From Terriglobales bacterium (GTDB lineage: Bacteria > Acidobacteriota > Terriglobia > Terriglobales > Acidobacteriaceae): a stretch of DNA of 64,000 bases. Positions 45,939 to 61,636 of the stretch are shown in pieces. A program made the position numbers and the translations under genes. Under the pieces are notes generated by a model. That model saw only the letters and a list, made by a program, of their open reading frames with translations. It was not told the DNA's origin and did not search any database. How positions within the stretch are numbered: position 1 is the stretch's first letter; every line of letters begins with the position of its first letter. Where the stretch lies: positions 124,001-188,000 of the forward strand of contig DASSIZ010000069.1 of assembly GCA_035691485.1 (NCBI GenBank). The letters run 5' to 3'.

Positions 45939-46304
45939 TTATTCGATTCCTAACAGCTTATCGATGATCTGCAACATTTCGCTTGGCGGCTTGCCCTTCA
46001 CCATGAATCCATCCACCGTCGCCAGAACATCGGTTGGCATCTCGGAGACGCCGGTGAACAGAATGATCGGCACCTCAGGCTTCATGCGCTTCATCAGCGC
46101 CGAGACCGCCGTGCCGTCCCGCTCCGGCATGTTGTAATCGAGAATGACCGCGCTCACCGGCTGGGTGGCAAACCGTTGTAACCCTTCGTCAGGGCTAAAT
46201 GCGCTGATCACCGCGTATCCGTGTTGCTGGAGGTACAGGGACCAGCCGGAAACGGCAACCTGGTTGTCGTCGACGCAGAGGATGGTGTGTTTTCTTCGCG
46301 GCAT
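45939..46304 (-). CDS. Stand-alone receiver-domain response regulator
   Basis: A 121-residue CheY-like domain. The acidic pair is VDDN (12-13), the phospho-acceptor Asp56 is in VILDYNMPERDG, the Thr is in ILFTGVS and the Lys is in MVKGKP. It is transcribed with the upstream atypical methyl-accepting protein (15 bp gap), so it is a likely output or adaptor of that receptor. Confidence 0.85.
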   Translation of the reverse strand: MPRRKHTILCVDDNQVAVSGWSLYLQQHGYAVISAFSPDEGLQRFATQPVSAVILDYNMPERDGTAVSALMKRMKPEVPIILFTGVSEMPTDVLATVDGFMVKGKPPSEMLQIIDKLLGIE

Positions 46305-46319
46305 CGATCTTGCCAGCTG

Positions 46320-47756
46320 TTAGGCTCGCCCGAACACCGCCGCCGATGCCGCTTCCGGTTTATCGGTCTTGACGACTGCCGGTCCCAGTGCCGGCTTCGA
46401 CTGGGGGATGGCCTGTGTGAGCTGCTCGGCTGATCGTACCACCTGCTCCACGATTTTCGCGCTCTGTCTAGCCTTTGTCGAATTTTGCCGCAAGTTGGCA
46501 GCGAGCTCTTGCACCGCGCCGGCGACGTGTTCAGTGCCCTGCACCTGCTCCGAGGAAGCCGCCGAAATAGCCTGTGCGAAGTCCGCCGTCTGGTGCAGCA
46601 CGGTGGAGATGCCCGTGAAGGCTCGGTTTGCCTGTTCCATCAGTTGCGTGCCGTTGGCGGCGACGCGATTTCCTTCTTCCATTACGGATACCGCCTGGTT
46701 CCCTTCCGCCTGGATGGACTTCAGCAAGCTCACGATGTCGCGTGTCGTAGAACGCGAGTGCTCGGCCAGTTTTTTCAGTTCGGCGGACAGTACTTCGAGC
46801 GCATGGCTGCCCTGGTTGCCGCGCGACATCTCCACAATCGCGTTCTGTGCCAGCAGGTTGGTTTCGTGAATCAGGTTAATGATCTCGTAGATTTCCAGGG
46901 AGCGGTCGGCCAGCGATTTGATTTTCTCCGCTGTTGCCTGCATGGAGACGCGAACCCGCTGCATGCCTTCCGCGGTGTCCCGTACCGCCCGGCTTCCCTG
47001 CTCGGAAAGATCGAGCGCGCGTTTTGCTGCATCGGCAGTGGCCGAGGCATGGGTGGAGACCCGCTGCGTACTCTGGCTGAGCTCCGCGATGGCGGCGGCA
47101 GCATCCATCGTCGCTTGCTCCTGCTGCGCCGCGCCATTGGCCATTTCGGTGGCCGCAGTCGAGACCTGTGCTGCCGAGGTCGCGATATCGCTGCTCGCGG
47201 TTCGCACTCGCTCGATGCGCCGAGCGTAATTGTCCGCCAGCGCATTGAACGATTCGACCACCGCTGTCAGAAACGGATGCGAGGGGTCCGCGGCGCGGGC
47301 CGACAACTCACCACGTGACACGTGGTTGATCACTTTTTCCAGTTCCGCCAAGTCCGACCGCAGCAGTTCTTCTCCGGTTTTGATGGCCGCCGACTGGGCA
47401 ACCAGCTCCGCCAACCGATTCCAGTTTTCCGCAATCAGGCCGAAATCGTCCGAGGTGATGGTGGCGCGCGTCTCGTAATCCCCGGCGACCATCTTTTCTG
47501 AAATCTCCAGCAATTCGCTGGTCGGCTTCACCACGGTGCGGCCAAGCTTTACCAGCAGCACAATGCTGCTCACCAGGACCAGCAACAGCGCCGTCAGGAA
47601 TTCCAGTCCCGCCACTTGCGGCAGCGCGCCAAAGTCCAGCACTGACAGTCCGCCCGAACGCGAGCCCGCCGCATAAGCGAGCAGCAGAATGACCAACAGC
47701 GCGCCGGCATTAAACCCGACCAGCGACCACACACGCGACTTCACTCGGTCCTTCAC
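46320..47756 (-). CDS. Methyl-accepting chemotaxis-like protein with an atypical signalling tip
   Basis: The 478-residue protein has two membrane segments close together (about 12-29 and 51-69), leaving only ~20 residues outside, then a HAMP domain (~70-125) and a long coiled coil. The hairpin tip normally reads NLLALNAAIEAARAGE; here it is TNLLAQNAIVEMSRGNQGSHALEVLSAELKKLAEHS. So it keeps the register but has lost most CheA/CheW-contact residues. It may sense a membrane or cytoplasmic signal and use another partner. A copy of the island's inverted repeat lies ~145 bp upstream of the start. Confidence 0.8.
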   Translation of the reverse strand: MKDRVKSRVWSLVGFNAGALLVILLLAYAAGSRSGGLSVLDFGALPQVAGLEFLTALLLVLVSSIVLLVKLGRTVVKPTSELLEISEKMVAGDYETRATITSDDFGLIAENWNRLAELVAQSAAIKTGEELLRSDLAELEKVINHVSRGELSARAADPSHPFLTAVVESFNALADNYARRIERVRTASSDIATSAAQVSTAATEMANGAAQQEQATMDAAAAIAELSQSTQRVSTHASATADAAKRALDLSEQGSRAVRDTAEGMQRVRVSMQATAEKIKSLADRSLEIYEIINLIHETNLLAQNAIVEMSRGNQGSHALEVLSAELKKLAEHSRSTTRDIVSLLKSIQAEGNQAVSVMEEGNRVAANGTQLMEQANRAFTGISTVLHQTADFAQAISAASSEQVQGTEHVAGAVQELAANLRQNSTKARQSAKIVEQVVRSAEQLTQAIPQSKPALGPAVVKTDKPEAASAAVFGRA

Positions 47757-47865: not shown

Positions 47866-48552
47866 TCAGCGTGCAGCAGCGAGAGGCGAAGCAGAAGATT
47901 GCATCTCAGAGTGAGACTTGACTGACTTTGCGGCGAGCTTGACTTCTGACTCCAGAGAGCTGAACCGCTGCACAATGTCGTGAATGCGCAGCGCCATGGT
48001 GTGAATGGTCGCCAGTTGGTCGCGGACTTCGGCGGAAAATGCGCCCGGCTCCAGCAGCATGAGTTCTGCGTTTCCCAGCACCGAGGTGAGCGCGTTATTC
48101 AGAGTATGGCGCATATCGAGCATGTAGCGGCCCAGCATGGCGTGGCCTTCGGCTTGAGTCATAGCCTGTTCGGCGCGGCGGGCATGTGCGTTCGCATCCA
48201 AACGCCGCAGAGTTTCGGTGGCGAGCGCCACCAGCACCTCGACCCAGCCTTCATGTTCGCGTACCAGCATCATTCGCGGATACTCGTTGCGAACGTGCTG
48301 CAAATCCATCCCTTCGCTAACCAGCAAGATCGCAGGTTTACCGGATTCCTCCACCGCCTTGAACAGCGGCGCGACCACTTGTTTCACGCCGGCGATCACC
48401 GCCACATGACAAGACGCCAGCAGCGACTCGCTCCAAGCCGGCGTCGTCATCAGGAGAAATGAAGGCAGGCTGCGCTCACTCTGCCAGCGCGCCATGATGG
48501 TGGGCGCGAATTCCGGCTCGTCCGAGACGATCAGTACCGATGCTTGCGACAC
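47866..48552 (-). CDS. Pseudo-receiver plus histidine-kinase dimerisation domain, no ATPase
   Basis: The 228-residue protein has an N-terminal receiver-like fold (VLIVSDEPEF...) without a phospho-acceptor Asp at the usual place (CHVAVIAGVKQ). A DHp-type helical hairpin follows, with His149 in MRHTLNNALTSVLGNAELML. It ends there: the HATPase domain is missing. It could be a phosphotransfer or phosphatase partner of the nearby kinase. The start is GTG 48552. An inverted-repeat site lies 124 bp upstream. Confidence 0.7.
   Translation of the reverse strand: MSQASVLIVSDEPEFAPTIMARWQSERSLPSFLLMTTPAWSESLLASCHVAVIAGVKQVVAPLFKAVEESGKPAILLVSEGMDLQHVRNEYPRMMLVREHEGWVEVLVALATETLRRLDANAHARRAEQAMTQAEGHAMLGRYMLDMRHTLNNALTSVLGNAELMLLEPGAFSAEVRDQLATIHTMALRIHDIVQRFSSLESEVKLAAKSVKSHSEMQSSASPLAAAR
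47901..47915. promoter_or_regulatory. RTCTCA-N3-TGAGAY inverted repeat, site upstream of the atypical MCP
   Basis: ATCTCA-GAG-TGAGAC, a perfect match to the consensus. It lies within the last codons of the pseudo-receiver gene, about 145 bp upstream of the atypical MCP start, where an activator of that gene could bind. Confidence 0.5.
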
Positions 48553-48791: not shown

Positions 48792-50219
48792 CTAATTGCT
48801 CTGCATGGCAGCAGCGGCCGAGGCCTGTGCTCCGGCTGCCTCGATGTGATAGCGCTTCAGCTTGCGGTAGAGGGTGGCGCGGCTGATGCCAAGCATCTTG
48901 CCGGCAAGCGCCTTGTCCCCTCCTACCTGCTGAAACACACGCTCGATGGTCTGGCGCTCGATGTCTTCCAGGTCAGTGGAATTCGGCGCCGCCGCGGACG
49001 GCATCGCTGAAGGCGCTTCTGCCGGCACTGGAAGCGACGGACCGGTCATACGAATAGCCGCCGGCAGATCCTGTACATCAATGGTTCTGTGGTTGCCAAG
49101 AGCAATAGCGCGCTCGATGCAATTCTCCAACTCGCGCACATTACCCGGCCAATCGTACTGGAACAGGCAATGCATAGCCGCAGGGGTGACCGTGACATTT
49201 TCTTCTGGCGCATAGCGGGCCAGAAAGGAACGCACCAGGCACACCATGTCGGACTTGCGCTCCCGCAATGCCGGCAGATGAATGGTGACCACGTTCAGCC
49301 GGAAGTAAAGGTCCTTGCGGAAGGTTCCGTTGCGGTAAGCCGCCTCGAGGTCGCGGTTGGTGGCGGCAATGACGCGCACGTCCACCCTAACCTTGTCGTT
49401 ACTACCCACCGGTCGAACTTCTTTCTCCTGCAGGACGCGCAGCAGTTTTGCCTGCATCTCCAGCGGCAGCTCGCCAATTTCGTCGAGAAAGATGGTACCG
49501 GTATTGGCCGCCTGGAACAGGCCCTGCTTGGATTTCATCGCGCCGGTGAAGGCGCCCTTTTCATAGCCGAAAAGCTCGCTTTCGATCAGCGTCGGAACCA
49601 GGGAACCGCAGTCGACCGCCACGAATGGGCGCTTCTGGAAGGAACCGCGGAAATGGATGGCGCGCGCGACCAATTCCTTTCCCGTGCCGCTTTCACCGGC
49701 GATCAACACCGGGGTGCGGGTGTCCTTCAGTCGCGAGACCATGCGCAGCACGTCCTGGATCTTCGCCGAGGAGCCGTCAATGACGTTGAGCTCCTGCTCG
49801 TTGCTGACGCGGTCGCGAAGGTATTCATTTTCCGAAACCAGGCGCACTTTTTCTTTCATGCGTTGCAGGACCAGCTTCAGTTGCCCGGCGCCGAAGGGCT
49901 TGGTGATGTAGTCGTAGGCGCCCAGCTTCATCGCTTCCACCGCCGATTCAATGGAACCATGGCCGGTGATGATGGCGACCTCGGTGCGCGGCAGCATGGA
50001 CTTGATCTGTCGCAGCAGATCGTCGCCGCTCATCGCGCCAAGCTGCCGATCGAGCACGATGATATCCGGCGACTCCGATTCCAGGTACGCCAGCGCCGCC
50101 TCGGCGCTTTCCGCTTCGGCGCATTCAAACCCGAGCGAAGCGCCAATGGTCATGCATAGCTTGCGGATGCTCTGCTCGTCATCCACGATGAGGAAACGAA
50201 CGCGAAAATCGTCTGTCAT
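48792..50219 (-). CDS. NtrC-family sigma-54-dependent response regulator
   Basis: The 475-residue protein has a receiver (phospho-acceptor Asp57 in IIVLDRQLG), an AAA+ domain with Walker A GESGTGKE (175-182), the sigma-54-contacting GAFTGA (222-227), and a C-terminal Fis-type HTH (DIERQTIERVFQQ...KMLGISRATLYRKLKRY). It thus activates sigma-54 promoters when phosphorylated. It is last in the kinase-receiver-NtrC operon, overlapping the upstream receiver gene by 4 nt. The inverted repeats in this island are plausible binding sites. Confidence 0.93.
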   Translation of the reverse strand: MTDDFRVRFLIVDDEQSIRKLCMTIGASLGFECAEAESAEAALAYLESESPDIIVLDRQLGAMSGDDLLRQIKSMLPRTEVAIITGHGSIESAVEAMKLGAYDYITKPFGAGQLKLVLQRMKEKVRLVSENEYLRDRVSNEQELNVIDGSSAKIQDVLRMVSRLKDTRTPVLIAGESGTGKELVARAIHFRGSFQKRPFVAVDCGSLVPTLIESELFGYEKGAFTGAMKSKQGLFQAANTGTIFLDEIGELPLEMQAKLLRVLQEKEVRPVGSNDKVRVDVRVIAATNRDLEAAYRNGTFRKDLYFRLNVVTIHLPALRERKSDMVCLVRSFLARYAPEENVTVTPAAMHCLFQYDWPGNVRELENCIERAIALGNHRTIDVQDLPAAIRMTGPSLPVPAEAPSAMPSAAAPNSTDLEDIERQTIERVFQQVGGDKALAGKMLGISRATLYRKLKRYHIEAAGAQASAAAAMQSN

Positions 50220-50608
50220 TTCGGGCCCCCGAAAATTTTTTCGACCATACCGATCAGCTGCTGCACGCGAAACGGCTTTTCCACGCAGGGCGCTCCGGTC
50301 CGGCGCAAGGCCGCCGCTGTTTCTTCGTTCACAATATCGCCGGTAATGAAAATCACACGCGTGGCCAGCTCCGGCTTGTGGCTGGCAATCCAGGCGTGAA
50401 CATCGGCGCCGTCCACGCCGCCGGGTGTGCGCATGTCAGATACCACTCCCAGAAAGTCTTCGCGCGCGAGCATGAGCAACGCGTCCGCCCCCGTCCCTAC
50501 GGGCACGACGCCGTAGCCGGCCCGCTCCAGGGCGGCCTTCACGAAGGAAAGAACGGCGGGCTCGTCCTCAATGACCAACACCGGATGCTTGCCGTCGTTC
50601 GCAATCAT
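50216..50608 (-). CDS. Stand-alone receiver-domain response regulator
   Basis: A 130-residue receiver with the acidic EDE (14-16), the phospho-acceptor Asp58 in VVSDMRTPGGVDG, FITGD and the Lys in VEKPFRVQQL. It is wedged between the GAF/PAS kinase and the NtrC gene with 4-nt overlaps on both sides, so it is a likely intermediate or sink of that kinase. Confidence 0.88.
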   Translation of the reverse strand: MIANDGKHPVLVIEDEPAVLSFVKAALERAGYGVVPVGTGADALLMLAREDFLGVVSDMRTPGGVDGADVHAWIASHKPELATRVIFITGDIVNEETAAALRRTGAPCVEKPFRVQQLIGMVEKIFGGPK

Positions 50609-53451
50609 CGTGTGCCTCCCGATGCAGAAGCGGCGGCGTCCAGGGGAAGGCGGACAATGAAGGTGGCGCCGTATCCATCATCATTGTTCCGGCAAAGGAT
50701 TTCGCCGCCGTGCTCGCGCACGATGCCGTAACAGATGCTGAGGCCAAGGCCGGTTCCCTTGCCGACTTCCTTGGTGGTGAAGAAGGGATCGAAGATGCGG
50801 TCGGGATAGGCGATGCCGTGGCCGTTATCGCGGAAGTGCGCCTCGGCGAAGCCGTTCACACAGGCGGTGGAAATCTCGATGCGCCCCTTCCGCCCGGTTT
50901 CGCGCACCGCGTCGTAGGCATTGTTCAGAATGTTGAGGAAGACCTGCTGCAACTGGTGGGCATCGCCGATGACTTCCGGAATCCGCTCATTGAAGTGCTC
51001 TACCACTTCGACCCCATGGCTGGCGAAATCATAGGCGCGCAGCGCGAGGGTGCGGCGCGCGATGACGCTTAAGCGAAGGGCGTCGCGCTGCGGCGGCATC
51101 TGGCGCGCGAAGCTGAGCAGGTTCTGCACGATCTGTTTGGTGCGCTGCGCTTCCTGCAGGATCACGCGCAAATCTTCCTTGGCATGCGGCGGAATTTCTG
51201 GGCTCTCCAGCAGTAGGTCGGTGAAGCCCAGCACCGCCGTCAGCGGATTGTTGACCTCGTGGGCGACGCCGGAGACAAGCTGGCCCACGGCGGCCATCTT
51301 CTCGGTGTGCATGAGCTTGGCCTGCAGCATGGCGGCATCGGTGATGTCGGTCATCACTACGACAATGCTATTGACGTTGCCGGCCTCGTCCCGCATGGGA
51401 CTGAGGTTAATCGAGAACTGCCCTCCCCTGCCCTGCCCCAGCAGGACCGGCAACTCCATGTTGTCCGCCTGGCCGCCCGCCAGTGTTCCATTCAGGGCTT
51501 CGAGCAGCGCCTGGCGCCGGCCGGGTGGAACCAGCTCGACCAGTTTGTGGCCAAGCAAGTCTTCCTGCGTGTAACCGCCTGCTTCGAAGCAGCGCTTGTT
51601 GGCGTAGCTGATCAGCCCGGCGGTATCCACCACCAGAATCATGCTCTGGGTGTTGTTGAGGATCTTGTTGTTGAAGTCTCGCTGGCGCTGCAATTCCGAC
51701 TGGAAGTTCTTCAGCTCCGTGATGTCGAGCATCAGCCCGCGATATTGAACCACCTTGCCTTGCGCATCGCGAACGGCGAAAGCGTTTTGCAGGCTGTAGA
51801 TGAGCGAGCCGTCCTTGCGGCGCAGGGTCTCCTCAAAATTGCGCACCACGCCCCTGGAGTTGATTTCTCTTACGAAATGATCGCGCTGCTCCGGCGAGAC
51901 GTAGAGCTGGCTGCTAATGTCGATCTGCAGCAGGTCTTCGCGGTTATCGTAGCCGAGCATGCGGACCAGAGCGTCGTTCACCTCGATGAAGCGCCCCTCG
52001 GGCGTCGAGAAAAACAAGCCCTCCTGGATGGTGTCGAAGAGCTCGCGGTAACGGCGCTCGGCCTCACGGCGGTCGGTAATATCCTTGAGCACGTGAATGG
52101 TCTGCATGCCTTCGTTCGCAGCCCCGTGAATGCGTGAAGTCGAGACCAGGTACGTCCGGTCAAGCACCGGGTGAACGTAGTCATCGGCGAGGTCGAATCC
52201 GGCGCGACAGAAAGGACAAGGCGCGGTGCTTTGGTCGGCGGCCATGGCAACCAGCGCCCGCACGCTGACTCCGATCAACTCCGATGGCCGCACCCCGATG
52301 AAGTCGGCCAGCGACTTATTGACGCGCAGCACGCGATACGACTCATCGTGCACCACAATCAGGTCGGTGATGGCGTCGAAGATCTCCATCCAGTGCCGGT
52401 TCGCCTGGTCCATGCGCGTGAACCAGCGCGCGTTTTCCAGGGCCACGGCAGCGTGGGACGCCAGCGCCTTCAGCAGATGACGATCATCGTGCGACAGCGG
52501 TCCGCCACAATCACTGAGGCACAACAGCCCGATAAACTCCCCGCCACCGCCGGTGAGACGAGCGATGGTGAGGTCCTTCCAGCCAAGCGTCGCGGCAACG
52601 GAATCTCCCAACACTCCGGCGGCTGTACCGCAAAACACCGGGTCCAAATGCTGGCTGGCGAAGTCGCCGAGTGCCACGTCAAAGCGATGATGCGATGCCG
52701 AATCGTGTCGCGCGCCAGGATCGTAAAGAACGACCGTATCCAAGTGCTTGCCCTGAACGATGGCGAGCGCCGCCGCGCGCGCGCCCAGCATCGCAGCCGC
52801 CCTCACCGTGAAATTCTCCATGAATTGCGGCAGCCGTACTGTGGAATTGAACTCCAGGGCTGCCGACATCAAGTTTTCCGATCGGCGGCGGTGCTGGTCG
52901 GCGGCGTAGAGGTTGGAAGTTGCTTCCAGCACGACGGCTGCCTCTGACCCCAGAGTGGTGGCACGGTGGAGGTCTTCGGCGGCGATGTTGCCGCCATCCA
53001 TACGGTCAAGCAGGCCGGCAATGCCTAACGGCTGGCGGTTCGAGCCGAGTAGCGGTATGACGAGGCACTGCGTCGAATTTAGTGAAGAGAAGGGATCAGT
53101 CAGACCTTCGGCCCACTGGCTGAGGTCGGTGGTCCAAAAAGGCTCGTCGGTGGCCTGGACCCGGCGTTCGAGCAAGTGCGGCAGTGGCGCGCGCACTGGG
53201 CGGGCCTTTCCGTCTTCAGCAATCCACCGGATTTCGTAAGTTGCCCCGTCTGCGAGCGCGATAAAGGCCCGGGCGAATCGGAGATATTCGGTGGCACGCA
53301 GGACGAAGTTTTCCAGGTATTCGTCCAACATTTCCCCCCGCCGTCGCTCTGACGCTACAAGGCCCTCCGCGCGTGCGGACGAGAGGGCCACCGGCTTTTC
53401 CCCAGTTTGCATGGACGGAGCTGTAGGTGCTTGTCGCTCAGAGAGAACCAT
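50605..53451 (-). CDS. Hybrid-sensing histidine kinase with GAF and PAS domains
   Basis: A soluble 948-residue kinase without membrane segments. In order: a GAF domain (about 35-175), a second GAF (about 195-340), three PAS domains (about 350-715; the first contains a CPFC pair that might bind metal or sense redox), a HisKA domain with His731 in SGVAHEVNNPL, and HATPase with NNAYDAV, DNGHGI and GTGLGLSI. The NtrB-like AHEVNNPL and the GAF/PAS array suggest a cytoplasmic signal. It is the first gene of the kinase-receiver-NtrC operon and diverges from the chemotaxis operon. One inverted repeat sits just before its ATG. Confidence 0.92.
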   Translation of the reverse strand: MVLSERQAPTAPSMQTGEKPVALSSARAEGLVASERRRGEMLDEYLENFVLRATEYLRFARAFIALADGATYEIRWIAEDGKARPVRAPLPHLLERRVQATDEPFWTTDLSQWAEGLTDPFSSLNSTQCLVIPLLGSNRQPLGIAGLLDRMDGGNIAAEDLHRATTLGSEAAVVLEATSNLYAADQHRRRSENLMSAALEFNSTVRLPQFMENFTVRAAAMLGARAAALAIVQGKHLDTVVLYDPGARHDSASHHRFDVALGDFASQHLDPVFCGTAAGVLGDSVAATLGWKDLTIARLTGGGGEFIGLLCLSDCGGPLSHDDRHLLKALASHAAVALENARWFTRMDQANRHWMEIFDAITDLIVVHDESYRVLRVNKSLADFIGVRPSELIGVSVRALVAMAADQSTAPCPFCRAGFDLADDYVHPVLDRTYLVSTSRIHGAANEGMQTIHVLKDITDRREAERRYRELFDTIQEGLFFSTPEGRFIEVNDALVRMLGYDNREDLLQIDISSQLYVSPEQRDHFVREINSRGVVRNFEETLRRKDGSLIYSLQNAFAVRDAQGKVVQYRGLMLDITELKNFQSELQRQRDFNNKILNNTQSMILVVDTAGLISYANKRCFEAGGYTQEDLLGHKLVELVPPGRRQALLEALNGTLAGGQADNMELPVLLGQGRGGQFSINLSPMRDEAGNVNSIVVVMTDITDAAMLQAKLMHTEKMAAVGQLVSGVAHEVNNPLTAVLGFTDLLLESPEIPPHAKEDLRVILQEAQRTKQIVQNLLSFARQMPPQRDALRLSVIARRTLALRAYDFASHGVEVVEHFNERIPEVIGDAHQLQQVFLNILNNAYDAVRETGRKGRIEISTACVNGFAEAHFRDNGHGIAYPDRIFDPFFTTKEVGKGTGLGLSICYGIVREHGGEILCRNNDDGYGATFIVRLPLDAAASASGGTR

Positions 53452-53719: not shown

Positions 53720-54046
53720 ATGTTCGGAATGACTAAAGGGCGCTGGGTGATGGTGGCAGTTCTCGGCCTGGCGCTATGTTCGCCGGCATCGACGACCGAA
53801 AGCGAACGCAAGGTCCTGAGCAAAGTAAAGCCGGCCTATCCCGCACTGGCGCGGGAAATAAATATTAGCGGGACGGTGAAGATCGAGGCCGTGATCACGG
53901 CCAACGGTACCGTGAAGGCCGTTCGCCCGTTAGGGGGGCACCCGCTGTTGATCCTGTCGGCCACGGATGCACTGCGCAAATGGCGCTACGCGCCCGGACC
54001 GGAGACCACGGTGATCGTGGAGTTCCAGTTTTCCCGCGGCGATTAA
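53720..54046 (+). CDS. TonB C-terminal-domain periplasmic protein
   Basis: A 108-residue protein with a signal-like N-terminus (MVAVLGLALCSPAST) and a TonB C-terminal domain: KVLSKVKPAYPALAREINISGTVKIEAVITANGTVKAVRPLGGHPLL and ALRKWRYAPGPETTVIVEF. It lacks the membrane anchor with the ExbB/D-contact motif and Pro-rich linker of TonB. It is the first gene of the chemotaxis operon, ending 23 bp before the MCP gene. A role in sensing at the outer membrane or cell wall is inferred. Confidence 0.78.
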   Translation: MFGMTKGRWVMVAVLGLALCSPASTTESERKVLSKVKPAYPALAREINISGTVKIEAVITANGTVKAVRPLGGHPLLILSATDALRKWRYAPGPETTVIVEFQFSRGD

Positions 54047-54069
54047 CGCGCCCGATTGCGAGAGTAGCC

Positions 54070-56076
54070 ATGACGATCAGTAAGAAACTGTACCTGAATT
54101 TCGGAGCGATACTGGCGCTGCTGCTGGTGCTGTTCATAGTGAATATCACCGCGGTGCAACGCGAGCACATGGCTCGTGCCTCGGCATCGCGCGCTCTGGA
54201 ACTGGCGCAGCAAGGCGAATTAGTCCGGTTCCAGATGATGCAGAACCGGTTGTACCTGCGCAATTACCTGCTTAGCGGCGATTCGCGCGAAGTGGACAAG
54301 ATGGATGAGGGCATCGCGCGACTGCACAACCTGCTGAAGAACTTGAGTTCACAGGTGAATTCCGAGGCCCATCGTAACGCCCTGCACAGCCTCGAGAGTG
54401 CGGAGCAGCAATGGGAATCCGGCTTTGCGCGTCCCCTGGTGCAAAAGCGCAAGGAAGTTGAAAGCGGCTCGACCACGGTGGCGGCGCTCCAGATTTTTTA
54501 CCTGCAGCTCAATCCCACGCAATGGATGAAGACTTCCACCGGCTACCTCGATGAAGGCGAAGCGGCCAACTCCAAGCTGCTGGAGTCGGAGCGCAAGAAG
54601 GACGAAGCAGCCACTTCGGCAACCACCGTCATCAGCATCGTCGGTACGGTATTGGCCATCCTGTTTGGTGTCTTCATTTCCTACAAAACTTCGAAATCCA
54701 TCTCCGATCCGCTGCAACAGCTGATGCGCGTGGCGCGAGAGATCGGCGAATCCGGCGATTTGGCCCACGAGGTGGACTGCAAGCGCGACGACGAAGTCGG
54801 CGACCTGGCCCGCTCCTTCACTTCCATGGTGACCTACCTGCGCGAAATGGCGGCGGTTTCGGAATCGATTGCCGGCGGAGACCTGGCGGTCGAAGTCAAG
54901 CCGCGCTCCTCGCGCGACACCCTGGGCAACGCATTCGCCAAGATGGTGGATGGCTTGCGTGCCTTGGTGAGCAGTGTTCGCGACAGCGCGGCGCAGGTGG
55001 CCAGCGGTTCCAACCAGGTGGCCGGCGCCTCCGACGAATCGGCCAAGATCAGCCTCAATGCCGCCGCCGCCATCGATGAAGTGAGCAGCACCATGCACGA
55101 GATGACGATCAACGTGCAGAGCATGGTGAAAAACACGCAGGTGCAGGCGTCGAGCGTGAGCGAAACCTCCGCCTCCATCGACCAGATGGTCACCTCCATC
55201 CAGCGCGTGGCCGACACAGCTAAGGTGCTGCTCGACATCAGCCAGCGCTCGCGGGAAGAGGTGCAGAACGGCATCAGCACCATGGAAAAGGCGACCGACG
55301 GGCTTACCCGCATCAATCGATCGATCTCGTCGTCGGGCGAAATTATTGCCGTGCTTGGCCAGCGGGCGGACGATATCGGAAAGATCGTCGAGGTGATTGA
55401 CGATTTGGCCGAGCAGACGAACCTGCTCGCCTTGAACGCCGCCATCGAAGCTGCGCGCGCCGGTGAACATGGCCTCGGCTTCGCCGTGGTCGCCGACGAG
55501 GTCCGCAAGCTGGCGGAAAAATCCGCGCAATCCACCAAGGAAATCGCCGAACTCATCACCAGCATTCAGAAAGAGGCGCGCAAAGCCGTGGACAATATGG
55601 AGAAGAGCACGACCATCGTGAACGAAGGCATCACCTTCGGGAACGACCTGAACATGGCGTTGCGCAAGATTTCCACCGTGGTCACTGAGGTTTATAAGTT
55701 CGCGCAGGAAATCGGCGCCGCCACCAACGAGCAGTCGCATGGCTCGTCGCAGATCGCCCGCGCCACCACGCGGCTCAACGAAATCACCCACGAGATCAAT
55801 TCCGCGGTCGAAGAGCAGGCGTCCGGCGCGCAGGCGGTGGTGAAGGCGATGGACCGCATGCGCGAATTGGTGCAACGCTCAACTTCGGGTTCCACCGAAT
55901 TGGCGGCTTCGTCGGAACAGATGTCAAAGATGTCCAGCAGCCTGCTGGATGCGATGAATCGCTTCGTCCTCGAGGGCTATAGCGGCAACGGCAATGGGAG
56001 CGCGCCCTCACCGCCGTCTCCCAAGCAGCCGAAACGGGTAGCGCCGGAGAGCTATGCGGCGGTGTCGCGCTCCTAG
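54070..56076 (+). CDS. Methyl-accepting chemotaxis protein
   Basis: The 668-residue receptor has TM1 (about 9-27), a helical periplasmic domain (28-183, four-helix-bundle/CHASE3-like), TM2 (184-204), a HAMP domain (205-258) and a long cytoplasmic coiled coil. The tip is canonical: LAEQTNLLALNAAIEAARAGEHG at about 445-468. It should therefore couple to CheW and CheA, whose genes follow. The C-terminal tail is short and Pro-rich, without an NWETF-like pentapeptide. ATG 54070 is chosen. Confidence 0.93.
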   Translation: MTISKKLYLNFGAILALLLVLFIVNITAVQREHMARASASRALELAQQGELVRFQMMQNRLYLRNYLLSGDSREVDKMDEGIARLHNLLKNLSSQVNSEAHRNALHSLESAEQQWESGFARPLVQKRKEVESGSTTVAALQIFYLQLNPTQWMKTSTGYLDEGEAANSKLLESERKKDEAATSATTVISIVGTVLAILFGVFISYKTSKSISDPLQQLMRVAREIGESGDLAHEVDCKRDDEVGDLARSFTSMVTYLREMAAVSESIAGGDLAVEVKPRSSRDTLGNAFAKMVDGLRALVSSVRDSAAQVASGSNQVAGASDESAKISLNAAAAIDEVSSTMHEMTINVQSMVKNTQVQASSVSETSASIDQMVTSIQRVADTAKVLLDISQRSREEVQNGISTMEKATDGLTRINRSISSSGEIIAVLGQRADDIGKIVEVIDDLAEQTNLLALNAAIEAARAGEHGLGFAVVADEVRKLAEKSAQSTKEIAELITSIQKEARKAVDNMEKSTTIVNEGITFGNDLNMALRKISTVVTEVYKFAQEIGAATNEQSHGSSQIARATTRLNEITHEINSAVEEQASGAQAVVKAMDRMRELVQRSTSGSTELAASSEQMSKMSSSLLDAMNRFVLEGYSGNGNGSAPSPPSPKQPKRVAPESYAAVSRS

Positions 56077-56085
56077 TTCGTTCCC

Positions 56086-56544
56086 ATGGCTAAGGAACTT
56101 CAAATCGTCGGCTTCCGAATCGGGCAGGAGACGTTTGGCCTGCCCATTTCGCTGGTCCACGAAATCGTGCGCCCGCCGGAGATCACCAGCGTCCCGCACG
56201 CGCCTGAATACGTGGAAGGGGTGATGAACCTGCGCGGACGCATCGTGCCGGTCATCGACCTCCGGCGGCGCTTCGGCAACGCCTCGGCGGGGACAAGCAG
56301 AAAAAACCGCGTCCTGGTCGTGGAGGTGGAATCGCGCGCGGTCGGACTGGTGGTGGACAGCGCCTCGGAAGTCCTGAAGATCAGCGATGCGCAAATCGAG
56401 CCGGCGCCGAATGTCTTTACCGATCCCGGCACCAACTACGTGACCGGGGTCGCCAAGTACCAGGGGCGGCTGATTATCCTGGTGGACATGAAGAAGATCT
56501 TGCAACCCGGTGAATTGTGCCTGCCCGCGAACGCAGGCGTGTAA
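56086..56544 (+). CDS. cheW: Chemotaxis coupling protein CheW
   Basis: The 152-residue SH3-like adaptor links receptors to CheA. It has the family's FGLPISLVHEIVRPPEITSVPHAPEYVEGVMNLRGRIVPVIDLRRRFG and the end block VAKYQGRLIILVDMKKIL. Located 9 bp after the MCP gene. Confidence 0.95.
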   Translation: MAKELQIVGFRIGQETFGLPISLVHEIVRPPEITSVPHAPEYVEGVMNLRGRIVPVIDLRRRFGNASAGTSRKNRVLVVEVESRAVGLVVDSASEVLKISDAQIEPAPNVFTDPGTNYVTGVAKYQGRLIILVDMKKILQPGELCLPANAGV

Positions 56545-56550
56545 CGGACT

Positions 56551-57450
56551 ATGGCGACTCCTTCGATCCAGTTGTCGGAACCCGAGCTGAAACTGCTGCA
56601 GACACTGGTTTACCAGGAATGCGGTATGGTCTTCGACCGTCGGCGAGCCCATTTTCTGCGGGACCGGTTGCAGCGTCGGCTGCTCGCCTGCCGGCTGGAC
56701 TCCTTCTACAGCTACTACCGGTTGCTTACCAGCCGCGAAGGCCGGACAGAATTGGCCACCTTGCTGGAAAACCTCACCATTAACGAAACCAGCTTTTTCC
56801 GCAACAAGCCGCAGCTGGACTTGTTTCACAAGGTTACTCTGGAAGATTTGCTGCGAAAAAAGCACGCGGAGTGCGATTTTTCCATTCGCATCTGGAGCGC
56901 GGGCTGCTCGACCGGGCAGGAGCCGTACACGATTGCCATGCTGCTGTGCGACGCACTGGCGTATCACACGCTGTGCAACGTGCCTCGTCCCATTATGCCC
57001 TCACCCAAGCCGCTGGTTCCGCCGCCGTGGAAGGTGGAAATCCTCGCTTCCGACATCAGCTACGCCGCGCTGCGGACGGCGCAGGAGGGCAGTTACAGCG
57101 AACAGCAGATGGAGCCCGTCGACTTCATGTACCGGCTCCGCTATTTCGACAAGATCGGCTCGCGGTACGCGGTGAAGCAATCCGTCAAGCAGATGGTGAA
57201 GTGCGATTTTCACAACCTCAAGGCCGACTTCCTGCCGCAGGGTAATGACGTCATCTTCTGTCGCAACGTCATGATTTATTTTGACGAGCCGGAGCAGAAC
57301 CGGCTGGCCGAGAAGCTCTACCGGTGCCTGCGTCCGGGCGGGTATTTGTTCGTTGGTCATAGCGAAACGCTTTTTGGGCTGAGTGACAAATTCCGCATGG
57401 TCCACCAGAACAACGGGACCGCGTACCAGCGCAATGAGGTGCAGGCGTGA
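56551..57450 (+). CDS. cheR: Chemotaxis protein methyltransferase CheR
   Basis: The 299-residue SAM enzyme methylates receptor glutamates. N-terminal helical domain (RRRAHFLRDRLQRRLL), then the SAM site IRIWSAGCSTGQEPYTIAMLL, FCRNVMIYFDEPEQNRL and the end GYLFVGHSETLFGLSDKF. TINETSFFRN is the substrate-loop motif. A Pro-rich insert (PRPIMPSPKPLVPPPW) after SAM motif I is unusual. Its stop overlaps the cheA GTG start (GTGA). Confidence 0.94.
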   Translation: MATPSIQLSEPELKLLQTLVYQECGMVFDRRRAHFLRDRLQRRLLACRLDSFYSYYRLLTSREGRTELATLLENLTINETSFFRNKPQLDLFHKVTLEDLLRKKHAECDFSIRIWSAGCSTGQEPYTIAMLLCDALAYHTLCNVPRPIMPSPKPLVPPPWKVEILASDISYAALRTAQEGSYSEQQMEPVDFMYRLRYFDKIGSRYAVKQSVKQMVKCDFHNLKADFLPQGNDVIFCRNVMIYFDEPEQNRLAEKLYRCLRPGGYLFVGHSETLFGLSDKFRMVHQNNGTAYQRNEVQA

Positions 57451-59558
57451 GCTCCCATTCCGACGATCGCTCCTCTGAGATGCGGGACCTGTTTTTCCAA
57501 AGCGCGCAGGACCTGTTGCAGGCGCTCAACGAGCAGGGGCTCGCGCTGGAACAGGATTCGTCGAATGCAGAGGCGGTGCGAGAAATCCGGCGCATCGTGC
57601 ACACGCTCAAAGGCGACTCCGCCGCTTGCGGCTTCCGGGAACTCACCGACCTGGCGCACGAGCTGGAAGATGTGCTCACGCCGGAGATCGCCGCCGCCAA
57701 TGGCCCTTCCTTGCCGGATGTCGTGCTCAGCGCGGCCGACATGTTCGACGCGCTATGCGCCGCCTATCGCGCCCGTCTGGATCCGCCGAACGGAGACCCG
57801 CTGCGCGCCATGATTTGGCGCATGGCGCAGCAAGCTTCGCAGCCGGTGAGGCCCGCGGCCGAACTGAAGCCGGGGTTCTCCTGGTCTGAGTACGAACAGC
57901 TCGCAATGCGCGAAGCGGCGGGACGAGGACTTCATGTCTTCGAAATTGCCATCGCCATTGCCGCAGACTGCCCCATGCGCGCGGCTGGCATTGCTCTGCT
58001 GAAGAAAGTTCTGGAGAAAGCGGGTACGCTGCTAGCGACCTCCCCCGAGGAATCGAAGTGGGCCGATGCCCGCCATATGGAATTTGCCATCGCTACCGAA
58101 CGCGATGAACAGTGGCTGAACAACAAATGCCGCCTGCCTGGCGTGGTGGCAGAAGTCGCGATCGAAAAATTTGCGCCAGCGCTGGAACTCACCGACGAGG
58201 ACGCGGCCATGGCAACCACTGCAAGCGCGACCTCCGCGGTGGGCTCATCACTGACGGCTTCGCCGGCGGGTAGCCACAGCGCCGCCGTAAATCGGATGGC
58301 GGCGTCCCCGGCCGAAAGCACGCTGCGTGTCGACGCCGAGCGCATCGACAATCTGCTCAATCTCGTCGGTGAACTGGTGATTGGCAAATCCATGCTCCAC
58401 CAGTTGCTGCAAGAATTCACGGTGCGCTTGCCGAAGGACCCGCTGCGCGCCAAGTTCGCCGACGCCCTCGCATTCCAATCACAACTGCTCAATGGGCTGC
58501 AGCGCTCAGCGATGAAGATTCGCATGGTGCCGGTAGACCAGCTGTTCCGCCGCTTCCCGCGCCTGGTGCGTGACGTCGCGAGAGTGTGCGGGAAGGATGT
58601 GAAGCTCGAGGTGAGTGGGCAGGAGACCGATCTCGACAAAGGGTTGCTGGACGCGCTTGCCGAGCCGCTGGTCCACTTGGTCCGTAACGCCGTAGACCAC
58701 GGCATCGAAACGCCCGCCGAACGCCGCGTCGCCGGCAAGCCGGAACAGGGCACGATCCATCTTCACGCCTGCCACCAGGGCAACCAGGTAGTGATTGAGA
58801 TCAGCGACGATGGCCGCGGCATTGATTCCGCAGGCGTGCTTGCGAAAGCGGTCTCGCGTGGCCTTATCACTGCCGAGCAGGCGGAGCGCACCACCGAAGC
58901 GAGCGCCATCGATTTCATTTTCCAACCGGGATTCAGCACTGCCGAACGAATCAGCGAAATTTCCGGACGCGGAGTCGGCATGGACGTGGTGAAGAGTGCC
59001 ATCCAGAAACTGAAAGGCAGCGTCGGCGTCGAAACACAGCCCGGGCGGGGAACCGCCTTTCAGCTGCGTATGCCGCTCACGCTCGCCATCATCCGCGCCA
59101 TGCTGTTTCGTGTCGCCGACCGCCTGTACGCAATGCCGCTCGAATCGGTGCTCGAGATTACCCGCGCGAGCGGAACCGACATCCACCGTGTGGACAATCA
59201 CGAGGTGCTTCAGCTCCGTGAAGACGTGCTGACCGTGGTGCGGTTGAGCCAGCTTTCGGCGGCGACGCCGGCCGGCAATAGCGATGGACGCGTGTTCGTT
59301 ATCGTGATCGGGAACGGCGGCCGCAAGTTCGGGCTGCTGGTCGACCAGTTGGTCGGCGAAGAAGAACTCGTGATCAAGCCTTTGGACGAGACCATCGTCG
59401 CCAGCGAGTTGGTGAGTGGAGCTTCGGTGCTCGGCGATGGGAGCGTGGTCCTGATCCTCAATGTCAGCGAAGTTCTTCGGAAATTCGCGCGCACTCGCCT
59501 CAACACTGCCTTGATTTCTGAGTCCGGGGACGGCCGCTCCAGGGGGGCAATGGCGTGA
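57447..59558 (+). CDS. cheA: Chemotaxis histidine kinase CheA
   Basis: The 703-residue kinase has a P1 HPt domain with His52 in VHTLKGDSAACGFREL, a P2-like domain (about 150-240, FEIAIAIAADCPMRAAGIALL), P3 dimerisation (DNLLNLVGELVIGKSMLHQ, about 300-370), P4 ATPase (LVHLVRNAVDHGIE, ISDDGRGID) and a P5 regulatory domain at the end. All parts needed for transphosphorylation are present. GTG start at 57447 overlaps the cheR stop. Confidence 0.95.
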   Translation: MSSHSDDRSSEMRDLFFQSAQDLLQALNEQGLALEQDSSNAEAVREIRRIVHTLKGDSAACGFRELTDLAHELEDVLTPEIAAANGPSLPDVVLSAADMFDALCAAYRARLDPPNGDPLRAMIWRMAQQASQPVRPAAELKPGFSWSEYEQLAMREAAGRGLHVFEIAIAIAADCPMRAAGIALLKKVLEKAGTLLATSPEESKWADARHMEFAIATERDEQWLNNKCRLPGVVAEVAIEKFAPALELTDEDAAMATTASATSAVGSSLTASPAGSHSAAVNRMAASPAESTLRVDAERIDNLLNLVGELVIGKSMLHQLLQEFTVRLPKDPLRAKFADALAFQSQLLNGLQRSAMKIRMVPVDQLFRRFPRLVRDVARVCGKDVKLEVSGQETDLDKGLLDALAEPLVHLVRNAVDHGIETPAERRVAGKPEQGTIHLHACHQGNQVVIEISDDGRGIDSAGVLAKAVSRGLITAEQAERTTEASAIDFIFQPGFSTAERISEISGRGVGMDVVKSAIQKLKGSVGVETQPGRGTAFQLRMPLTLAIIRAMLFRVADRLYAMPLESVLEITRASGTDIHRVDNHEVLQLREDVLTVVRLSQLSAATPAGNSDGRVFVIVIGNGGRKFGLLVDQLVGEEELVIKPLDETIVASELVSGASVLGDGSVVLILNVSEVLRKFARTRLNTALISESGDGRSRGAMA

Positions 59559-60646
59559 TGCAGCCCGTCCGAGTGCTGGTGGTCGATGATTCCGCCCTGA
59601 TGCGGAAACTGATCCCGCAAATGCTGGAGCGGGACGCCTCGATTCGAGTTGTAGACACCGCCATGGATGGCGCCTTCGCGCTTTCCAAGATCGAAGAAGT
59701 GAAGCCGGATGTGATCACCCTGGATTTGGAAATGCCGCGCATGCACGGAATCGAGACCCTGCGCGAGATCACGCGCCGGCACCGCATTCCCGTGATCGTC
59801 GTCAGCGCACACACCACTGCGGGCGCCACTACGACCTTTAAAGCTCTGGCGATGGGCGCGCTCGATTTCGTGGCCAAGCCGGCCGGTGCCGCGTCGGCAC
59901 AGATGGATGAAATCGCCACCGAACTGATTTCCAAGATCAAGATCGCTGCCGGGGTGATCGGCGCTGCGCCCGCCATCGCATCCCTGCCACAGAACCCCAA
60001 GCGGCCCCGCCCCAGGATCACGCACGAGCCGACTCGAATTATCGCTATAGGAATTTCGACCGGCGGACCTACTACGTTGCAATACGTGCTGTCGCAGCTT
60101 CCGGGCGATTTCCCCGGCAGCATTCTTGTTGTGCAGCACATGCCGGAGGGTTTTACCGAGATGTTTGCGCGCCGGCTCAATGACACCTGCGCCGTCGAGG
60201 TGAAAGAGGCGCGCTCGGGCGACCTGCTGGCCGCCGGGCGCGTGCTGATCTGTCCCGGCAACCACCATTTGCGCTTGCGACGCATGCCGCTCGGTCCGGT
60301 CGTCATTTTGGGAAACGAGGAGCGCGTAAACGGACATCGCCCCTCGGTGGACGTGCTGTTCCGTTGCGTTGCGCGGGAATTCGGGCCCAAGGCAATCGCG
60401 GTCCTGATGACGGGAATGGGCGACGACGGCGCCGACGCGATGGCCGAAGTAAAAGCGGCCGGCGGTCTTACCATTGCCCAGAGCGCTGAATCGTGCGTCG
60501 TGTTCGGCATGCCGAAGGCGGCCATCGAGCGCGGCCACGCGGAGCGCGTGCTCTCACTCGACGGGTTGGTTAGCGCCTTGCAGGCGCAGTGCAACTTGGG
60601 GCGCACGGAAGCAGCCAGCACGGTGGCTGCTCAGCCGGCGAGGTGA
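59558..60646 (+). CDS. cheB: Chemotaxis protein-glutamate methylesterase CheB
   Basis: The product is a receiver domain (phospho-acceptor Asp56 in DVITLDLEMP, counting from ATG 59558) linked to the CheB esterase: Ser in GISTGGPTTLQ, His in VVQHMPEGF and Asp in MTGMGDDGADAM. It removes methyl groups from receptors. The ATG overlaps the cheA stop (TGATG). Receptor adaptation enzymes CheR and CheB are thus both in the operon. Confidence 0.95.
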   Translation: MQPVRVLVVDDSALMRKLIPQMLERDASIRVVDTAMDGAFALSKIEEVKPDVITLDLEMPRMHGIETLREITRRHRIPVIVVSAHTTAGATTTFKALAMGALDFVAKPAGAASAQMDEIATELISKIKIAAGVIGAAPAIASLPQNPKRPRPRITHEPTRIIAIGISTGGPTTLQYVLSQLPGDFPGSILVVQHMPEGFTEMFARRLNDTCAVEVKEARSGDLLAAGRVLICPGNHHLRLRRMPLGPVVILGNEERVNGHRPSVDVLFRCVAREFGPKAIAVLMTGMGDDGADAMAEVKAAGGLTIAQSAESCVVFGMPKAAIERGHAERVLSLDGLVSALQAQCNLGRTEAASTVAAQPAR

Positions 60647-60719
60647 AGGAATTGTGACCTGACTTCTCGTTTGGATTCTGCGCCAATGGCCGACGGCCAG
60701 CGGCGCGATGAGGTAAACC

Positions 60720-61166
60720 ATGGAGCAATTCACGACGTTGCTGCGCAAAAAAGACAGGCAACCGATCCGCTATCTGGTGGTGGACGATTCCATTTTCGCG
60801 CGCAAGAACCTGGCGCGCATGATCGAGTCCTTCGGTGGGCGCGTGGCCGGCGAAGCCGGCGATGGTTGCACGGCTATCACAGAATACACGCGCACTCTGC
60901 CTGACGTAGTCCTGATGGACATCATCATGCCGCAGATGGAAGGCATCGAGGCAGCCGAGAAAATTCTTCGCCTGCACCCGCAGGCGCGCATTGTCATGGT
61001 CTCCTCGGTGGGCTACCAGGAAAACATCATCGCCGCTTTGGAAAAAGGGGCGCGCCACTTCGTGCAGAAACCGGTCAAACCCGCGGTCCTGTACGACGTG
61101 GTGAAGTACGTGATGGCGGACGACGCCATCACCGCCGTCGAAGCGTCGGCAGGAGCAACGCTATGA
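60720..61166 (+). CDS. CheY-like receiver protein
   Basis: A 148-residue receiver with a short N-terminal extension (MEQFTTLLRKKDRQP). The acidic pair is VDDS, the phospho-acceptor Asp67 is in VVLMDIIMPQMEG, and the Lys is in FVQKPVK. It lacks a DNA-binding domain, so it is likely the output of CheA to a motility apparatus; no flagellar or pilus genes are in the window. Overlaps cheX by 4 nt. Confidence 0.9.
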   Translation: MEQFTTLLRKKDRQPIRYLVVDDSIFARKNLARMIESFGGRVAGEAGDGCTAITEYTRTLPDVVLMDIIMPQMEGIEAAEKILRLHPQARIVMVSSVGYQENIIAALEKGARHFVQKPVKPAVLYDVVKYVMADDAITAVEASAGATL

Positions 61167-61636
61167 GACTGGAACTGATTCAGCCGTTTATCAACGCGGC
61201 CGATGCAGTGCTGGCTCAGAACCTGGAATGCAGCACGCGCGTGTCCAATGTCAGCATGGAGCAGGCGGCGTACCGGCGGCGCGGTTTGGCGGCCGTCGTC
61301 ACCATCAAAGGAGACATCGAAGGCAGGATCGTCTTCGACCTCGACCGCGACATGGCGGTGCGCGTCGCGTCGGCTCTGGCGGGTGACGGACTGTGCGATG
61401 CCGATAATTTCGTGAGCGAGACCATCTGCGAACTGGCCAACCAGGTGATCGGCAATGCCATCACCAGCCTCAATGACCAGGGATTTCACTTCCGCATTCA
61501 GCCACCCGAGGTGCATACCGCCGAGGAGGGCCTCGCCGGCAGTGAAGATACCGAGGCGCTGGTCATGTGCTTCGATACGCCTGGCGGCAGCGTGTTCATG
61601 AATATCGCACTGCGCTTCCCGCGGCTAAGCGCCTAG
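61163..61636 (+). CDS. cheX: CheX-like CheY phosphatase
   Basis: A 157-residue CheC/CheX/FliY-type protein. The phosphatase motif ExxN is present in SETICELANQVIGNA, and VTIKGDIEGRIVFDLDRDMAVRVASALAG matches the family core. With CheZ absent it would dephosphorylate the adjacent CheY-like protein. It ends the operon. Confidence 0.88.
   Translation: MRLELIQPFINAADAVLAQNLECSTRVSNVSMEQAAYRRRGLAAVVTIKGDIEGRIVFDLDRDMAVRVASALAGDGLCDADNFVSETICELANQVIGNAITSLNDQGFHFRIQPPEVHTAEEGLAGSEDTEALVMCFDTPGGSVFMNIALRFPRLSA

Follow-up and report, generated by a model that had tools for sequence, protein, structure and literature searches.

The gene at positions 47866-48552 of the window (the whole 64,000-nucleotide stretch of Terriglobales DNA analysed here) encodes a 228-residue protein in which a receiver domain without its acceptor aspartate is followed by the DHp hairpin of a HisKA histidine kinase, with no ATPase domain behind it. 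We find that this protein belongs to a real family, conserved across a clade of acidobacteria, and is not a broken kinase. Judged by its aligned residues, the family lacks the features that HisKA kinases require and keeps the residue that HisKA phosphatases require. The best reading, to which we give about an even chance, is that of a kinase-dead DHp protein that docks on the linked NtrC-type regulator and removes its phosphate.

A receiver fold and a DHp hairpin without an ATPase domain

The open reading frame starts with a GTG codon, ahead of which a GGGAG could serve as ribosome site. The protein and its main residues lie as follows (window coordinates, with the basis of each assignment):

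47866..48552, minus strand: target open reading frame, degenerate receiver plus HisKA DHp hairpin, no HATPase (open reading frame and translation, Pfam, AlphaFold2)
48250..48552, minus strand: residues 1-101, receiver fold without acceptor Asp (AlphaFold2, PDB receivers, column counts)
47938..48141, minus strand: residues 138-205, DHp hairpin of HisKA type, where conservation is highest (Pfam, column counts)
48106..48108, minus strand: codon of His149, the phospho-acceptor position (alignment column, tree)
48103..48105, minus strand: codon of Thr150, H+1 (alignment column; role from PMC3510030)
48094..48096, minus strand: codon of Asn153, H+4, the phosphatase residue of HisKA proteins (alignment column; role from PMC3510030)

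The sole Pfam domain is HisKA (PF00512), which covers residues 144-200 and scores 28.5 bits, above its cut-off of 26.9; neither Response_reg (PF00072) nor HATPase is matched in this protein by Pfam at E ≤ 1. His149 is located in MRHTLNNALTSVLGN. An AlphaFold2 monomer model built from a 65-row alignment (mean pLDDT 92.4, pTM 0.71) gives residues 1-100 a five-strand (beta-alpha) receiver fold of alternating strands and helices, followed by a long linker helix (103-146) and the two arms of the DHp hairpin (148-167 and 174-220). An earlier note, made from the letters of the DNA, had described DHp helices carrying His149 in a protein that ends before any HATPase domain, fused to a receiver-like part with no acceptor Asp. 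The reading frame, Pfam and the model confirm the first of these statements and the residue at position 54 the second, and the structure prediction that the note had proposed returns a receiver fold and a DHp hairpin, not a different fold.

Over most of its length the model matches LvrB best among PDB structures (8vc9, Foldseek E 5.4e-05); VIA-align superposes 218 residues with Z 13.3 and an rmsd of 17.4 angstrom, which means that the domains are placed differently in the two proteins. The matches after LvrB are mostly single receivers (HupR, DctD, NtrC1; Z about 12-13). A sequence search of the PDB with the family profile returned only a designed Rossmann protein (E 3.5e-5) and a polyol dehydrogenase (E 0.0059), while NCBIfam gave nothing but weak kinase matches far below their cut-offs and PHROGs gave no match. 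The target shares with LvrB and other Rec-controlled histidine kinases the order of REC, linker helix and DHp, but LvrB has its own CA domain and a phosphorylatable Asp56, both absent from the target (PMC13269768, as far as the part of that paper available to us describes it). Of the REC-DHp-CA arrangement with a phosphorylatable REC that defines LvrB-type kinases, the target thus has the REC-DHp order only.

The acceptor position after strand 3 of the receiver is Ala54 in the window's protein, and among 95 orthologues it is Gly in 87, Ala in 5, and Ile, Asn and Asp in one each. Most orthologues retain the acidic pair that follows strand 1, with Asp11 in 89/95 and Asp or Glu at position 12 in 85/95. 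Twenty-two Pfam families are matched by any of 65 members, and Response_reg is not among them. From these columns we predict that the receiver half cannot be phosphorylated.

Distribution of the family and residues of its H-box

A clear orthologue (E below 1e-25) is present in 25 of 61 related genomes, one in each. Some match at E ≤ 0.001 is found in 42 of the 61, the remainder of these matches being mostly kinases, a fragment at a contig end in genome G008, and sister proteins. A scan of a genome collection identified 124 relatives, 80 loci of which were kept, all of them acidobacterial and from records titled Acidobacteria, Acidobacteriales, Acidobacteriaceae, Terriglobia, Terriglobales, Acidiferrales or Sulfotelmatobacter; the scan used three peptide patterns, one of which contains the His, so that members without the His may be under-counted. 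In a sample of the phylum, a match at E ≤ 1e-15 occurs in 5 of 297 genomes. Adding 16 orthologues from the 61 related genomes to the 80 scanned loci gives a set of 96, with lengths from 123 aa (L025, a truncated copy in G006) to 237 aa and a median of 227. The mean column identity over 65 aligned members is 53%, with 19 invariant positions; HisKA is matched at E ≤ 1 in 65/65, and none of the 22 Pfam families with a match in these orthologues is HATPase. We considered a longer kinase cut short by a sequencing error or frameshift and rejected it, the relatives being of about the same length and followed by other genes.

In another family of the order, 11 of 14 genomes encode proteins of about 190-240 aa (E ≤ 1e-8) that form a sister family. 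Its members (L180-L191, 11 distinct proteins) are the reverse of the window's family: the receiver acceptor Asp is kept in 11/11, and the DHp His is missing from seven, which carry Ala, Arg or Val at H, the other four having His followed by Glu at H+1.

Of the 96 orthologues, 82 have His at position 149, 12 have Pro, and Asn and Ser occur once each. The next residue is never an acid (0/96); Ser is the commonest (40), followed by Gly (26), Asn (15), Thr (13) and Ala (2). H+3 is Asn, H+7 is Thr and H+11 is Gly in 96/96, and H+4 is Asn in 94 and Asp in two (L124 and L137). H+5 is Ala in 91/96, instead of the Pro found in the CrdS phosphatase. In all 21 rows without the His, orthologues and sister proteins together, H+3 and H+4 are both Asn, and H+3, H+4, H+6, H+11, H+13 and H+15 are invariant; the 12 Pro149 proteins are full length (220-230 aa). 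The earlier note's description of a good H-box with His149 therefore stands in part: the His is present in this copy, but it is not conserved through the family, and the H-box is not a good one for a kinase because H+1, here Thr, is not acidic.

We followed the His on a tree of 106 rows, 95 orthologues and 11 sister proteins, from which the His column had been removed; the truncated L025 was left out, as was L186, identical to L185 across the part compared. At least four changes are needed to explain the presence of the His, falling on the clade that the 12 Pro proteins form (support 96), on two single rows and within the sister family; this is a quick tree with several long branches (L022, L023 and L024 among them) in which the placing of single rows is unsure. 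Change counts by themselves do not tell loss from gain; we read the changes as losses because the His is present in all 37 other HisKA domains of the genome.

These 37 domains provide a further comparison. The genome holds 38 HisKA domains above cut-off and 47 HATPase matches, the only two of the latter inside the window being those of the linked GAF/PAS kinase and CheA. At H+1, 23 of the 37 other HisKA domains have E, 11 have D, two have H and one has Q, and 35 of the 37 have an HATPase domain in the same frame. One exception (C129:4442-4636) runs into the end of its contig inside the following domain, and the other (C60:14997-15158; G000, L171) is a 115-aa frame without HATPase, with the H-box HQINSP and hence Gln at H+1. 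Several kinases of the same genome have Leu, Val or Ile at H+5.

In HisKA proteins, the acid at H+1 is needed by kinases and the Asn or Thr at H+4 by phosphatases (Willett and Kirby, PMC3510030). In CrdS, H+1 is needed only for kinase activity and H+4 only for phosphatase activity, and the H371A variant, which has lost the His, still cuts the half-life of CrdA~P from 53.5 to 2.6 min (PMC3510030). The earlier note had suggested either an HPt-like relay or a phosphatase, and with the H+4 Asn kept and both the H+1 acid and the CA domain lost, a phosphatase fits the family much better than a relay. The fit has its exceptions. CrdS P376A, which has Ala at H+5, is a much weaker phosphatase, with more than 50% of CrdA~P left at five minutes (PMC3510030), and the Ala in 91 of the 96 orthologues counts against a phosphatase because the same change costs CrdS so much; the H+5 Pro is a supporting residue in CrdS, not a universal one. 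The Asp at H+4 in L124 and L137 counts against it as well, since CrdS N375D has no significant phosphatase activity (PMC3510030). Known HisKA phosphatases are much helped by their CA domain (PMC3510030), and nucleotide bound to the CA domain stimulates the phosphatase activity of EnvZ and HK853, according to the portion of PMC7005713 at hand. PleC depends on its His for the phosphatase reaction as well, as retold in PMC3510030, and His149 may matter in the orthologues that have it, which we also count against a phosphatase.

The linked regulator and kinase and the chemosensory genes

In the window the target gene stands in a row on one strand, in the order GAF/PAS kinase, REC2, NtrC-type regulator, target, MCP-like gene, REC1:

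50605..53451, minus strand: GAF/PAS histidine kinase, HisKA and HATPase both intact; the regulator's likely cognate kinase (Pfam, profile ranking)
50216..50608, minus strand: REC2, single-domain receiver, alternative substrate (Pfam Response_reg)
48792..50219, minus strand: NtrC-type sigma-54 response regulator, likely substrate (Pfam, co-occurrence)
46320..47756, minus strand: MCP-like protein, 109 bp downstream of the target (Pfam; HAMP-like region below cut-off, MCPsignal above)
45939..46304, minus strand: REC1, single-domain receiver, end of the gene row (Pfam Response_reg)

The regulator and the target gene occur together. An orthologue of the NtrC-type regulator (E ≤ 1e-150) is found in 26 of the 61 genomes, that is, in 24 of the 25 with the target gene and in 2 of the 36 without it (Fisher's test, p about 1e-13, ignoring shared ancestry). 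These two are G008, where a contig end interrupts the target gene, and G030, which has the kinase as well but no copy of the target. In G018 and G007 the target gene is on another contig than the kinase-NtrC pair. Where at least 6 kb of upstream sequence is available, NtrC lies within 8 kb upstream on the same strand in 49 of 58 loci. An NtrC-type gene is also directly upstream of the sister family in 12/12 loci, its NtrC similarity ending 33-140 bp before the gene. In G006, the one genome of the 25 whose regulator misses the cut-off, the NtrC orthologue (L054) beside the truncated target gene has lost residues 139-360, the ATPase region, through an in-frame deletion; the ATPase region of the one and the receiver part of the other are both gone, as if they had decayed together.

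We further ranked the 37 other HisKA domains of the genome with a profile of the family's DHp. The linked GAF/PAS kinase comes first at 40.0 bits, the next domain scoring 25.3, and with the window's genus left out of the profile it is still first (39.8 versus 25.0 bits). A profile of alpha1 only also ranks the linked kinase first; one of alpha2 only does not favour it. A connection to this neighbouring kinase, one of two raised in the earlier note, is thus supported by the most similar DHp of the 37 and by the co-occurrence of the adjoining regulator with the target gene. The lack of preference in alpha2, the absence of a copy from G030 and the unlinked genes of G018 and G007 count against the phosphatase reading.

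Two more genes recur upstream in the relatives. Gene B (about 310-575 aa when complete, e.g., L103:8844-9902) is found no more than 400 bp upstream of the target gene at 73 of the 80 loci, and 55 of the 58 loci with at least 6 kb of upstream sequence have it. It has no Pfam match (two copies), no PHROGs match (one copy) and no PDB sequence match, and AlphaFold2 gives it an all-helical core (mean pLDDT 82.9) whose best PDB match has E 1.0. As an obligate partner it was rejected, being absent from the locus in the window's genus, with only distant matches (22-26% identity) elsewhere. Gene A (about 120-160 aa, e.g., L044:7528-8007) lies within 8 kb upstream in 54 of the 58 loci; the copy scanned has no Pfam match and looks PilZ-like only by eye. 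In the window, both genes are missing between NtrC and the target.

Downstream, a part of the relatives carry REC, CheW, MCP, CheR, CheA and CheB after the target gene. Counted within 9 kb in the 50 loci with at least 6 kb of downstream sequence, CheA is present in 17, MCP in 18, CheW in 17, a receiver in 17 and CheR in 40, and in many other loci a CheR-like gene stands alone before uvrB. All 12 Pro149 proteins have at least one gene of this second Che cluster downstream. The window's MCP family is part of the second cluster found next to the target in some relatives, and the MCP-like gene and small receiver at 45939-47756 of the window look like leftovers of it. The earlier note's expectation of orthologues next to MCP-like genes is accordingly borne out in part, at the 18 of 50 loci with an MCP of the same type, and the tie to CheA that it had also raised is weaker than that to the GAF/PAS kinase, the CheA of the second cluster reaching E 1e-250 in 10 of the 61 genomes. 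The first Che cluster of the window (53980-61636) is a distinct one and includes a CheX-type phosphatase gene at 61163-61636, with which the locus would hold two candidate phosphatases of different kinds.

Candidate functions and relation to known systems

Taking these observations together, we favour a "half kinase", that is, the DHp half of a HisKA protein without ATPase, placed behind an unphosphorylatable receiver and acting in trans. The docking site of its DHp dimer would be the receiver domain of the NtrC-type regulator (48792-50219); a small receiver encoded in the same gene row is a less likely one. Asn153 would then position a water molecule and remove the phosphate, which the linked GAF/PAS kinase would have put on the regulator. 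The degenerate receiver is probably a binding site through which another protein turns the phosphatase activity up or down.

The conserved stretch around Asn153 could also be explained by binding without catalysis, the DHp sequestering the NtrC-type receiver as a decoy or adaptor with no hydrolysis. The whole alpha1 stretch, and not Asn153 alone, is held in the 21 rows without the His, the H+5 Pro is missing, two copies have Asp at H+4, and sequestration of the regulator is also described for PhyT, a phosphotransferase that resembles kinases (PMC5898713, in the part available). We think this unlikely, as docking alone leaves unexplained why the catalytic Asn at H+4 is held while H itself is His, Pro, Ala, Asn, Ser, Arg or Val. 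The resemblance to the linked kinase suggests instead a pseudokinase partner, which would form mixed dimers with the GAF/PAS kinase through the DHp bundle and shift its balance of kinase and phosphatase activities; the pseudokinase RocA, whose putative phospho-acceptor His is dispensable, binds CovS and needs the activities of CovS (PMC7028121, from the sections we could draw on). That resemblance, however, sits in alpha1 and is not favoured by the alpha2 profile, and in G018 and G007 the gene is on another contig than the kinase-NtrC pair, which is weak evidence; we regard such a partner as distinctly unlikely.

Spo0B and ChpT are kinase-like DHp phosphotransferases that do not act as ordinary kinases. 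A relay of this HPt-like type would take phosphate from a receiver to His149 and on to NtrC or another receiver, and it draws on the His of this copy and of most orthologues, and on the single-domain receivers near the gene in the window and downstream in 17 of the 50 loci. As the function of the family it was rejected, the His being changed in 14 of the 96 orthologues and in seven of the 11 sister proteins with the surrounding motif intact; among the changes on the tree is that to Pro in a clade of 12 proteins, all of them full length, with the motif kept and with genes of the second Che cluster downstream. The relay proposed in the earlier note is therefore unsupported as a conserved function, and we hold it to be very unlikely. 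Least of all do we expect a decayed remnant of a Rec-controlled histidine kinase with no function of its own: both halves carry inactivating changes and the copy in G006 is truncated, but the column identity and invariant positions of the family and its one clear orthologue in each of 25 genomes make this extremely improbable.

Among known systems, laboratory DHp fragments come close to the phosphatase reading, being DHp hairpins without CA and with Asn or Thr at H+4, and the partner of one of them, NtrB, is NtrC; the target differs from them in being natural and conserved, in having a degenerate receiver in front, and in that the His is gone in 14/96. The CrdS-CrdA pair and Che3 system of Myxococcus xanthus (PMC3510030) is alike in combining an NtrC-type regulator, a HisKA kinase and an extra chemosensory input, but there CheA3 and the full kinase CrdS set the level of CrdA~P, whereas here a separate DHp protein without CA stands beside the pair. 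PhyT, as the available part of PMC5898713 presents it, has a kinase-like DHp and relays through a conserved His, unlike the target family, which has changed this His repeatedly. A SMART count in the accessible part of PMC3591291 gives 1556 HisKA proteins without HATPase among 42417, 711 of the 1556 having HE/DxxN/T; compared with these, the target orthologues have E or D at H+1 in 0/96. HisKA proteins without HATPase are thus already known as a kind, and the changed His together with the dead receiver is a new variant of it. Our literature searches, judged mostly from titles and the starts of abstracts, recognised no described family with this combination.

The family may represent a natural class of dedicated regulator phosphatases derived from halved kinases, in which the dead receiver reads a partner, in places from a chemosensory array; we advance this tentatively, at somewhat less than an even chance. 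On this view the ATPase, the acid at H+1 and, in several lineages, the His would have gone, and the remaining DHp hairpin would do nothing but dephosphorylate an NtrC-type regulator, controlled by the receiver. If true, it would show in nature what laboratory work has found for isolated DHp domains, which can dephosphorylate a regulator by themselves; the mutagenesis has been done by evolution, which put Pro, Ala, Asn, Ser, Arg or Val in place of the His and left the Asn at H+4. How far the kinase and phosphatase chemistries of HisKA separate could then be tested directly in proteins that never need kinase activity, and the case warns against labels such as histidine kinase or HPt protein for genes of this kind.
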